Source: Mediterranea sp. An20
GTDB taxonomy: Bacteria; Bacteroidota; Bacteroidia; Bacteroidales; Bacteroidaceae
Assembly (NCBI RefSeq): GCF_002160055.1
Contig: NZ_NFJV01000005.1
Span: 85,457 to 149,456, forward strand
Length of the DNA: 64,000 bases
Reading direction: 5' to 3'
The notes under the pieces are model-generated. The model was not told the DNA's origin, did no database searches, and was given only the letters and a program-made list of their open reading frames with translations. The position numbers and the translations under genes were made by a program. Position 1 is the first letter of the stretch. Every line of letters starts with the position of its first letter. Positions 3,518 to 63,666 of the stretch are shown piece by piece.

Positions 3518-3586
3518 CTTATACTTTGGGAGCGGCTTCCTTATAGCTTGGAAGCAGACTGCATCTATATAAGAAGCAAACAGCCG
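3518..3586 (+). repeat. Degenerate 22-bp tandem repeat array, copy 1
   Basis: Three imperfect units of 22-23 bases can be aligned. Each has a TATA-like block then a GAAGC-like block: CTTATACTTTGGGAGCGG, CTTATAGCTTGGAAGCAG, and CTATATAAGAAGCAAAC. The stretch GAAGCAGACTGCA recurs exactly in the array near 43.8 kb. It lies just before the PBP1A promoter. It is not CRISPR-like because there are no constant repeats with variable spacers. Confidence 0.65.
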
Positions 3587-3617
3587 GATGTGCGGGCGCT
3601 TAAATCGCCATTCCCGT

Positions 3618-3649
3618 TTTGGGTATTCAGAAAATAGTTTGTATCTTTG
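3618..3649 (+). promoter_or_regulatory. Promoter of the PBP1A gene
   Basis: TTTG at 3618-3621, a 20-base spacer and TATCTTTG at 3642-3649 match the Bacteroidetes promoter closely. The start codon follows 27 bases after the -7 box. Confidence 0.8.
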
Positions 3650-3676
3650 TCCGGTTAAAAACAACAATGACAGACA

Positions 3677-6016
3677 ATGATAAAGAAAATCATACTGACC
3701 CTCTGGATATTCCTCGCTCTGTGCGTCTTGGCGTGCGTGGTGCTTTTTTATTCTATCTCAAAAGGATGGATAGGCTATATGCCTCCGGTGGAAGACCTGG
3801 AGAACCCTAACTATAAGTTTGCTACGGAAGTCCTGTCTGCCGACGGCAAGGTGCTGGGTACTTACTCTTACAGCAAGGAAAACCGCGTCTATGTGGGCTA
3901 CGACGAGTTGTCTCCCAATCTCATTCATGCTCTTATTGCTACGGAAGATGTGCGTTTCGCCCGTCATTCGGGCATTGATGCCAAGGCTCTGTTCCGCGCC
4001 ATCTTCAAGCGTGGTATCCTGATGCAGAAAAACGCCGGTGGGGGTAGTACCATCACCCAGCAACTTTCCAAGCAGCTTTATTCGCCCAGTGCGGACAACG
4101 TGATGGAACGCCTCTTCCAGAAACCTATCGAGTGGGTTATTGCCGTCAAGCTGGAGCGCTACTATACCAAGGAGGAAATCCTTACGATGTATCTCAACAA
4201 GTTTGACTTCCTTAACAACGCCGTGGGCATCAAAACCGCTGCACATACTTACTTCGGTTGCCTGCCCCGCGACCTGAAGACTGAAGAGGCTGCCACGCTG
4301 GTGGGCATGTGCAAGAACCCTTCGCTTTACAACCCTTTGCGCCGCAAGGAACAGACGCGCGGACGCCGCAATGTGGTGCTCGACCAGATGCGCAAGGCCG
4401 GATTCCTCACTCAGGCCGAGTGTGATTCGCTTCAGGCTTTGCCTCTCACGTTGCACTACAACCGGGTAGACCACAAAGAAGGCCTGGCCACTTACTTCCG
4501 CGAATACCTGCGTGGCGTGATGACAGCCAAGAAACCCGACCGTGCCAATTACCGGGGATGGCAGCGGCAACAGTTCTATGAAGACTCCATCGACTGGGAA
4601 ACCAATCCCCTCTATGGCTGGTGCAACAAAAACCTGAAGAAAGACGGCAAGCCCTATAATCTCTATACAGACGGGTTGAAAATCCATACTACCATCGACT
4701 CGCGCATGCAACAGTATGCAGAAGAGGCCGTCAGTGAGCACCTTAGTGAGATGCAGGGATATTTCTTCCGTGACAAGAAGAAATCGAAGACTGCACCATA
4801 TACCAGGAATCTTACCCCGGAGCAGGTGGACGAAATACTGAACCGCGCCATGCGGCAATCCGATCGCTATCGTACGATGAAGAAGTTGGGTAAGAGTGAA
4901 GAGGAAATCAAGAGGGCCTTCAATACTCCGCAGGAGATGTCTGTTTTCACCTGGGAGAACAACGCTCAGGTGAAGGATACCGTGCTGACACCGATGGACT
5001 CCATACGTTACTACAAGTATTTCCTGCGTGCAGGCTTTATGTCTATGGATCCACACAACGGACATGTCAAAGCCTATGTCGGCGGACCTAACTATCATTA
5101 TTTCCAGTATGACATGGCCATGGTGGGCCGCCGCCAGATAGGTTCTACGGTGAAACCCTATGTCTATACCTTGGCTATGGAGAACGGATTCTCGCCCTGT
5201 GATGAAGTGCGGCACGTGCAATATACGCTGATGGATGAAAATGGCATACCTTGGACACCCCGTAATGCCAATCATAAACGCTTGGGCGAGATGGTCACCC
5301 TGAAGTGGGGCTTGGCCAATTCCGACAACTGGATAACCGCTTACCTGATGAGCAAGCTCAATCCATACGAACTGAAGCGCCTGCTCCACAACTTCGGTCT
5401 CCGCAACCAAGACATCTTCCCTTCTGTTTCCCTCTGCCTTGGTCCTTGCGAGGTGTCTGTAGGCGAAATGGTGAGTGCCTATACGGCCTTTCCCAACAAA
5501 GGTATCCGCGTGGCGCCCCTGTTTGTTACCCACATCGAGGATAGCGAAGGCAACGTAGTGGCTACTTTTGCGCCCGATATGCAGGAAGTTATCAGTGTTT
5601 CCAGCGCCTACAAGATGCTTGTCATGCTCCGCGCCGTTATTAACGAGGGGACCGGAGGGCGTGTCCGCCGCTATGGCATCAAAGCTGATATGGGGGGCAA
5701 GACGGGTACGACCAATGCTCACTCCGACGGATGGTTCATGGGATTCACCCCCTCGCTGGTGTCCGGCTGCTGGTTTGGCGGCGAAGACCGCGACATCCAT
5801 TTCGACACCATGCTGCATGGCCAGGGCGCTTCGACGGCTCTGCCTATCTGGACGAAGTTTATGAACAAGGTCTTTGCCGACAAGAGTCTGGGATATGACG
5901 AGAACGAAACTTTCCAGCTCCCGCCCGATTACGACCCTTGTGCGGACGATGTGGCTGGCAAGAATCTTTTCGAGGGCGATGAACCTGTAGAGGGGTTGGA
6001 TGAGTTTTTCGAATAA
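3677..6016 (+). CDS. Class A penicillin-binding protein (PBP1A type)
   Basis: A bifunctional peptidoglycan synthase of 779 residues. An N-terminal membrane anchor spans about residues 4-26. The glycosyltransferase domain has catalytic Glu90 in TEDVRFARHSG, the GGSTITQQLSKQLY motif near 122-135, and ERYYTKEEILTMYLN. The transpeptidase domain shows the active-site Ser490-Thr-Val-Lys493, Ser549-Asp-Asn551 and Lys675-Thr-Gly motifs. It polymerises lipid II and cross-links the strands in the periplasm. An insert-rich linker of about 150 residues between the two domains is lysine- and arginine-rich. It begins a plus-strand run with folK-like, unknown and M16 genes, transcribed from the promoter just upstream. 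A 686-codon open frame on the opposite strand is a shadow. Confidence 0.96.
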   Translation: MIKKIILTLWIFLALCVLACVVLFYSISKGWIGYMPPVEDLENPNYKFATEVLSADGKVLGTYSYSKENRVYVGYDELSPNLIHALIATEDVRFARHSGIDAKALFRAIFKRGILMQKNAGGGSTITQQLSKQLYSPSADNVMERLFQKPIEWVIAVKLERYYTKEEILTMYLNKFDFLNNAVGIKTAAHTYFGCLPRDLKTEEAATLVGMCKNPSLYNPLRRKEQTRGRRNVVLDQMRKAGFLTQAECDSLQALPLTLHYNRVDHKEGLATYFREYLRGVMTAKKPDRANYRGWQRQQFYEDSIDWETNPLYGWCNKNLKKDGKPYNLYTDGLKIHTTIDSRMQQYAEEAVSEHLSEMQGYFFRDKKKSKTAPYTRNLTPEQVDEILNRAMRQSDRYRTMKKLGKSEEEIKRAFNTPQEMSVFTWENNAQVKDTVLTPMDSIRYYKYFLRAGFMSMDPHNGHVKAYVGGPNYHYFQYDMAMVGRRQIGSTVKPYVYTLAMENGFSPCDEVRHVQYTLMDENGIPWTPRNANHKRLGEMVTLKWGLANSDNWITAYLMSKLNPYELKRLLHNFGLRNQDIFPSVSLCLGPCEVSVGEMVSAYTAFPNKGIRVAPLFVTHIEDSEGNVVATFAPDMQEVISVSSAYKMLVMLRAVINEGTGGRVRRYGIKADMGGKTGTTNAHSDGWFMGFTPSLVSGCWFGGEDRDIHFDTMLHGQGASTALPIWTKFMNKVFADKSLGYDENETFQLPPDYDPCADDVAGKNLFEGDEPVEGLDEFFE

Positions 6017-63251: not shown

Positions 63252-63274
63252 GATACTTGAAATTTGGTTTGCTG

Positions 63275-63282
63275 CAAAAGTA
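63275..63282 (-). promoter_or_regulatory. Promoter -7 box for susA
   Basis: CAAAAGTA on plus is TACTTTTG on minus, 24 bases before the susA ATG. The -33 element is not obvious, as would be expected of an activator-dependent promoter. Confidence 0.5.
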
Positions 63283-63583
63283 GAGTGTTTATGTGTACCT
63301 GAGTGGACTTGGAATCTTTTTATAAATGAATGAAAATACTAATATGCTGTAATACAACTATTTGTTAGGCTTGGAAATGCTCGAAAATATAAATGGTTTC
63401 GAAGTATTTTAGGCCTTTTTTGAGAGTCTTTTTCATTGATTTCGGGGATTTCTTCTCTGCTTTTGTCTTGTTGTCGGCTACAGATGGATGTATGTTAAGA
63501 GGAGGTTGTGCAGGGGACGAATGTGAGGGGAGCAACCGGTCTTTGTGAATGACATTACCGGCAGGTGAAGTATCTCCGTATCC

Positions 63584-63666
63584 GTACTATATAAGAAGCA
63601 AATCTCAAAGGTATAAGCACCAACATGCTTATACTTTAGAAGGACGCTTCCTCTATATTAGAATTA
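63584..63666 (+). repeat. Degenerate 22-bp tandem repeat array, copy 7
   Basis: TACTATATAAGAAGCAAATC, AAAGGTATAAGCACCAACAT, TTATACTTTAGAAGGACGCT and TCTATATTAGAATTAG follow with a period of 22-23 bases. It borders directly on the strong hairpin at 63664. Confidence 0.7.

Follow-up and report, generated by a model that had tools for sequence, protein, structure and literature searches.

What are the short tandem repeats that recur between the genes of a 64-kb stretch of the Mediterranea sp. An20 genome (64,000 nucleotides of contig NZ_NFJV01000005.1, referred to here as the window), and what keeps their unit length constant while their letters vary? The original prediction described seven arrays of degenerate 22-bp units in this window. 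All seven are present, and a profile trained on the An20 genome recovers exactly these seven, while Tandem Repeats Finder at a score of 30 reports three of them. We read the arrays as evenly spaced docking sites for a predicted DNA-binding dimer that would help to organise the chromosome, a tentative reading to which we assign a probability of roughly 40%.

The block GAAGCAGACTGCA, reported as exact in two arrays, indeed has two exact occurrences in the window, at 3551 and 43794. None of the seven arrays overlaps a gene predicted by the simple caller (open reading frame, ORF, plus codon scorer) used for gene calls throughout, in line with the earlier claim that they lie outside genes. The count of occupied gaps has to be revised, as the prediction named seven of nine gaps longer than 300 bp, whereas this crude caller gives six of 11, one of which runs off the window end, and places the seventh array in a 277-bp gap. 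An isolated unit at 10918-10936 does match 16 of 19 bases of an array as proposed, but its posterior of at most 0.10 yields no array call.

Arrays were counted with a circular 22-state profile trained by expectation-maximisation, starting from 14 window units. The first training set consisted of 464 kb of the An20 genome (the window plus 400 kb of further stretches). In this set the symmetrised model finds 43 arrays; run on one order-3 Markov resample, it finds none. Retraining on 855,713 bp (22% of the 3.84-Mb assembly) raises the number to 88. Extrapolated to the whole genome, this gives a density of about one array every 10 kb, possibly an overestimate because all five contigs sampled had a first BLAST hit. 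This profile was trained on the same genome whose arrays it counts; the letter-blind test described below is independent of the training. A comparison with Rfam returned no match at gathering scores, consistent with the earlier remark that no named element of this form was known.

The trained profile offers a different picture of the unit from the directional one proposed originally, in which a TATA-like block precedes a GAAGC-type block. Instead, although no symmetry was imposed during training, there is one register in which the unit matches its reverse complement (distance 0.77, against 19.3 for the next best register). Its consensus reads C-[TC]-[TA]-A-[TG]-[AC] / [GT]-[AC]-T-[AT]-[AG]-G, then [AC]-AGC-nn-GCT-[GT]. 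Each unit holds 13.2 bits of information, with the outer C and G highest at 1.2 bits, A4/T9 and A14/T21 at ~1.1 bits and the spacer centre lowest at 0.14, so that conserved columns alternate with free ones. This uneven column information is a sign of selection, one of the two causes originally suggested, because uniform decay of old copies would not produce it. The phase is also kept: 228 of 236 steps between units in An20 measure 22 bp (the others 21, 23 or 24 bp, three of them 23 bp), and so do 130 of 131 steps in a congener, G004. Arrays of An20 contain two to five boxes, with three in 35 and four in 46 of the 88, and those of G004 three to seven, with four in 26 of 38. The units follow each other head to tail and thus lack the unique spacers of clustered regularly interspaced short palindromic repeat (CRISPR) arrays.

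The half-sites allow for a closer look at the symmetry. Two half-site types predominate, CCAAGC and CTTATA; they are freely combined, and a left half CCAAGC frequently stands beside a right half unable to pair with it. Among 292 An20 boxes, complementarity between half-sites lies at the level expected from independence in five of six position pairs, the exception being the central pair (0.47 complementary vs 0.35 expected). Each unit reads as the putative operator of a dimer rather than as a hairpin stem, because half-sites that vary independently are what two separate reading heads would leave. Boxes of the same array agree in half-site class more often than expected by chance (0.54 vs 0.26; 57 comparisons), indicating that units also duplicate locally.

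Even spacing along the chromosome is the strongest new property of the arrays, and one that goes beyond what the 64-kb window alone could show. The 82 spacings of An20 have a median of 7.3 kb and a coefficient of variation (CV) of 0.59, compared with a mean CV of 0.89 in gap-matched random draws, none of which (0/2000) is as even as observed. Spacings below 3 kb account for 3.7% of the total, vs 23.6% expected. In G004, where 38 arrays were found in 682 kb, 18 spacings range from 9.9 to 29.7 kb with a CV of 0.32, vs 0.87 in the null, and again 0 of 2000 draws are as even. Under three further nulls, with gaps chosen uniformly, by length, or permuted within length bins, 0 of 1000 draws each reach the observed CV in either genome. 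The low An20 share of spacings below 4.5 kb is likewise reached in 0 of 1000 draws.

The genomes used for comparison are mostly drafts and were sampled in part: G004 over about 682 kb, G041 (the genome of locus L044, an uncultured Bacteroides) over 231 kb, G077 over 397 kb and Bacteroides sp. ET71 over 400 kb. In the letter-blind test, 66-bp intergenic windows that are self-similar at a given shift are counted, and pitch 22 is set against 11 other pitches, none a multiple of three. The 132.6 kb of An20 intergenic DNA display 81 pitch-22 windows, compared with 5.5 on average and at most 11 for the other pitches, and with three in a Markov shuffle. In contrast, 689 kb of coding DNA hold five such windows and no excess. 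At a strict cut of z 6.5, An20, G004, G041, G077 and ET71 give 42, 18, 6, 20 and 15 pitch-22 windows, and three mixed Bacteroidales locus sets give 11, 16 and 6; other pitches over the sets have means of 0 to 1.2 and a largest single count of 6. The excess is found in the intergenic DNA of all eight Bacteroidales sets, one of them weakly (L092-L120, at a looser cut of 4.5: 14 vs 6.5 on average and at most 13 for the other pitches). No pitch-22 window at z 6.5 occurs in 200 kb of E. coli K-12. Because coding DNA is itself rich in pitch-21 peaks (89 in An20), peaks at 21 bp were left out, except for that of L289, whose array was read directly. Many of the listed pitch-22 windows are palindromic, with unrelated motifs, and one 685-bp gap of G077 (L207:11017-11701) contains at least four 22-bp-pitch windows of differing motifs.

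Searches by letters alone gave a narrower distribution. A single array as BLAST query finds matches in two of 60 genomes of the genus, that of An20 among them, and the An20 model applied to 80 loci around PRPP synthase gives two doubtful matches. These scans, one of the PRPP-locus scans taking in 20 of the 80 loci, suggested a family confined to one species, an idea overturned by the letter-blind scan and by a sequence-only profile built from 50 arrays and searched in 158 genomes of the genus. The latter has matches in at least 16 of them, An20 included; G041 (at least nine) and G004 (at least 15) are the two genomes with many. After retraining, the profiles recover 14 arrays from G041 (231 kb scanned) and 23 from G004 (335 kb); their units, CGAAGCCTTTCGGAGCGTGCTT and CCAAAGGCTTGGCAATTTACTG among them, share the pitch and dyad of the An20 units in different letters. 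At the level of sequence, pitch, dyad and unit number stay between species while the letters change, much like dialects. Period-22 profiles trained on the whole G077 sequence drifted into coding DNA, and those trained on ET71 and G077 intergenic DNA drifted into unrelated sequence; none of these models was used. The only match to genome G046 among those listed is an An20-dialect array at the start of its contig 49 (L126:50-151, E 2.4e-12), either a stray contig or a transfer. In G004 contig 94, an array is directly followed by the contig end, L163:12853-12887, the sequence of which we take to be an Illumina adapter.

Corresponding gaps in relatives allow for a comparison at fixed positions. 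For ET71, which among named relatives is nearest in its PRPP synthase (99% identity), we examined the gaps matching six window arrays, two of which are readable. Both hold an array with letters unrelated to those of An20. The counterpart of the gap at 3.5 kb carries a TAAAGTATCATACTTTA-type array with a pitch of 22 bp (L255:1-112; three copies in ET71), its adjacency being deduced from synteny because ET71 contigs break inside this gap. The counterpart of the gap at 43.8 kb carries a ACATCTCCAGGCTAAAGATAC-type array with a pitch of 21 bp (L289) with a z of 10.7, where the second highest of 2000 shuffles reaches 5.3. These two cases are no more than suggestive of the same gap carrying an array in other letters. 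The ET71 counterparts of the gaps at 15.1 and 21.1 kb meet contig ends, and those at 25.7 and 52.8 kb are not collinear; ET71 contigs 38, 11, 63, 24 and 16 end in or next to gaps matching the arrays at 3.5, 15.1 and 21.1 kb. No array stands out in the 3.5-kb gap of G160 or of G161. Orthologous gaps identified through reciprocal best proteins gave too small an overlap: among the 26 adjacent pairs of G004 there is one whose array is present in G004 but not in An20, and the pairs of G041 (10) and of the ET71 sample (26, to which the array model was not applied) include none with an array on the An20 side.

Within An20, 82 of the 88 array midpoints fall in predicted gaps of 60 bp or more, and five of the 88 arrays have more than half of their bases in an ORF of the crude caller. 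Among gaps of this length, arrays occupy 16 of 62 convergent, 41 of 213 tandem and 24 of 79 divergent ones. At a residual gap length of 300-600 bp the respective numbers are 3/6, 14/31 and 9/20, and at 150-300 bp they are 1/12, 15/59 and 8/24. A role restricted to promoters is disfavoured, since convergent gaps hold arrays too.

These features can be brought together in a mechanism in which one dimer would fill each 22-bp unit. Dimers on successive units would lie on one face of the helix, because 22 bp is close to two helix turns, and might bind cooperatively. Rows of bound dimers, about one every 7-17 kb, would then anchor chromosome domains, and the specificity of the binder would drift together with the arrays, at least some of which were dispersed by copying. 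A nucleoid-type binding site was among the roles originally suggested, and that reading is favoured here, with no binder found. A bolder version, which we regard as doubtful, is that a self-renewing ruler runs along the chromosomes of Bacteroidales: its evenly spaced arrays would conserve pitch, dyad and unit number, have their letters replaced in each species, and be read by a family of fast-evolving array-binding proteins that set domains of ~7-17 kb. Several observations weigh against docking sites. Each of ET71 and G077 has several low-copy motif families, a variety that a single global binder would not read. The test of even spacing covers two species, An20 and G004, and in the latter the share of spacings below 4.5 kb is weak evidence, being reached by 38, 50 and 61 of 1000 draws. 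In a search for travelling genes among 92 proteins (41-1399 aa) flanking arrays (z >= 7) of other species, no recurrent gene family was found, the top family accounting for four of the 92. Finally, copying with shared flanks fits a mobile element equally well.

In G041, an alignment of seven arrays extends into their flanks, over a length of some 190-200 bp. With the arrays masked, flanks are shared in 22 of 91 pairs in G041, in three of 703 in G004 and in 43 of 3828 in An20, vs 21 of 3828 among array-free gaps. Much of the An20 sharing comes from nine arrays beside another repeat, a degenerate GTGAAGG-type one found in their flanks (e.g. at contig 34:5952 and contig 2:101047). The best An20 pair reaches 82% over 229 bp. 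Similarity between in-register pairs also exceeds that between profile-simulated arrays (top 0.86 vs at most 0.72). Shared flanks together with similarity above simulation indicate that at least some copies arose by duplication, after which the conserved columns seem to have persisted while the rest drifted. The flank motif GCTGATAATCAGC accompanies 19 of 88 arrays vs 12 of 129 control gaps and TGTCAGAAAGGCTG eight of 88 vs four of 129, with one on each side in three cases vs none; these counts therefore define at most a small subfamily.

Such copying is what non-autonomous elements resembling miniature inverted-repeat transposable elements (MITEs), without any host role, would leave behind. 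Transposition immunity or loss of close copies could then generate the even spacing, and transposase recognition the conserved columns. The lower bound of the spacing (9.9 kb in G004) agrees with this, as does a 221-bp G004 gap with an array where the An20 genes overlap by 29 bp. However, such elements need a transposase, and none was found: RAYT-type transposases (Y1_Tnp, PF01797) are absent from all five array genomes, other families not having been searched for, while the same model matches in five of 14 known genomes used as control. Inspection by eye of the flanks of 38 G004 arrays and 40 of the 88 An20 arrays revealed no shared terminal inverted repeat or target duplication, with no search aimed at IS5-like ends. 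Moreover, the arrays keep their pitch as their letters change, a behaviour not required of a mobile family. Purely mobile elements, which would explain both spacing and copying, are the main rival, although in our judgement rather unlikely. Operators of a transcription regulon would equally be dyads in intergenic DNA, but the arrays also lie in convergent gaps, and even spacing is not expected of a regulon, a reading that we consider improbable. Tags for self-recognition in DNA uptake or exchange are less probable still. The distribution of uptake sequences is more even than chance would give, and species dialects and an even spread would suit them. Multi-unit, nearly all intergenic arrays 7-17 kb apart are nevertheless unlike single short tags ~1 kb apart, as given in the accessible part of PMC7811141. 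Hairpins in DNA or RNA (terminators, cruciforms) would account for the palindromic consensus, and some low-copy families are near-perfect palindromes. For the An20 dialect they are disfavoured by the lack of covariation, save the slight central-pair effect, and by the unpairable partners of CCAAGC, and we consider them very improbable. The same holds for neutral slippage minisatellites: local duplication does occur, but slippage would fix neither one pitch over many species nor mostly 3-5 units, and would give neither a shared motif nor even spacing.

Array coordinates in the window.
Position	Feature	Strand	Basis
3515..3581	22-bp dyad array, gap 3280-3676 before PBP1A-family gene	.	profile posterior ~1
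15059..15162	22-bp dyad array, divergent gap	.	profile scan
15059..15210	copy longer than the array, aligning with array and flank at contig 45:27476	.	77% over 152 bp
21074..21151	22-bp dyad array, convergent gap	.	profile scan
25736..25828	22-bp dyad array, tandem gap	.	profile scan
43755..43849	22-bp dyad array, divergent gap	.	profile scan
52767..52828	22-bp dyad array, 277-bp gap beside Rpn-family nuclease gene	.	profile scan
63586..63663	22-bp dyad array near window end	.	profile scan

The Rpn-family nuclease gene that adjoins the array at 52767 lies at 51677-52687 (NCBIfam TIGR01784, above cut-off). A separate AATGAAG-type tandem repeat at 2072-2119 also has matches at five places in ET71 and one in G161.

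To our knowledge, little is known of chromosome organisation in Bacteroidales. As docking sites, the arrays would offer a direct handle on it, and their positions would be expected to appear as landmarks in contact maps. Should they be purely mobile, they would still represent a geometry-defined class of repeats that keeps its copies kilobases apart. Such a repeat is defined by pitch rather than letters, and ordinary homology search misses it, as the match of a single-array query in two of 60 genomes, An20 included, illustrates. In titles and abstract openings of the largely open-access literature, we found no account of 22-bp dyad, evenly spaced or pitch-conserved arrays in Bacteroidales.

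Among known systems, repetitive extragenic palindromic (REP) sequences and bacterial interspersed mosaic elements (BIMEs) are palindromic, extragenic and present in high copy, with lineage dialects, and occur as single or paired palindromes. The arrays are likewise palindromic in consensus, extragenic, abundant and divided into lineage dialects, but they consist of tandem phased units, and the An20 dialect lacks stem covariation. With PF01797 in none of the five array genomes, a RAYT-driven REP is unsupported. The sites of parS, Noc, MatP and SlmA are single dyad operators dispersed over the chromosome, with a known binder and far fewer copies. The arrays share with such chromosome-organising operators a dyad with independent half-sites and a non-random spread (in An20 and G004), a likeness in working only; they differ in being phased, in having a predicted binder and in their larger number. 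Uptake sequences of Pasteurellaceae and Neisseriaceae resemble the arrays in their lineage dialects and high copy number. In contrast to a single short motif about every kb, as the accessible part of PMC7811141 describes, intergenic multi-unit arrays stand every 7-17 kb (An20 median 7.3 kb).

Of the published elements that we found, the 23-nt BrickBuilt repeat of Porphyromonas comes closest. According to the accessible part of its description (PMC4596501), BrickBuilt is a MITE of Porphyromonas gingivalis with 1 to 22.8 copies of the unit and 19 elements per genome, has a leader and a tail with IS5-like terminal repeats, and is predicted to form long stem-loops; 22-nt repeats in strain W83 are mentioned there with no places given. 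As far as this part of the source goes, both elements belong to Bacteroidales and comprise imperfect head-to-tail repeats of similar length, lie between genes in many dispersed copies, and are limited to a species group. The 23-nt unit, however, does not fit the An20 arrays, whose steps are overwhelmingly 22 bp. The arrays further differ from BrickBuilt (PMC4596501) in their mostly 3-5 units, independent half-sites and even spacing, and in numbering hundreds by extrapolation rather than 19.

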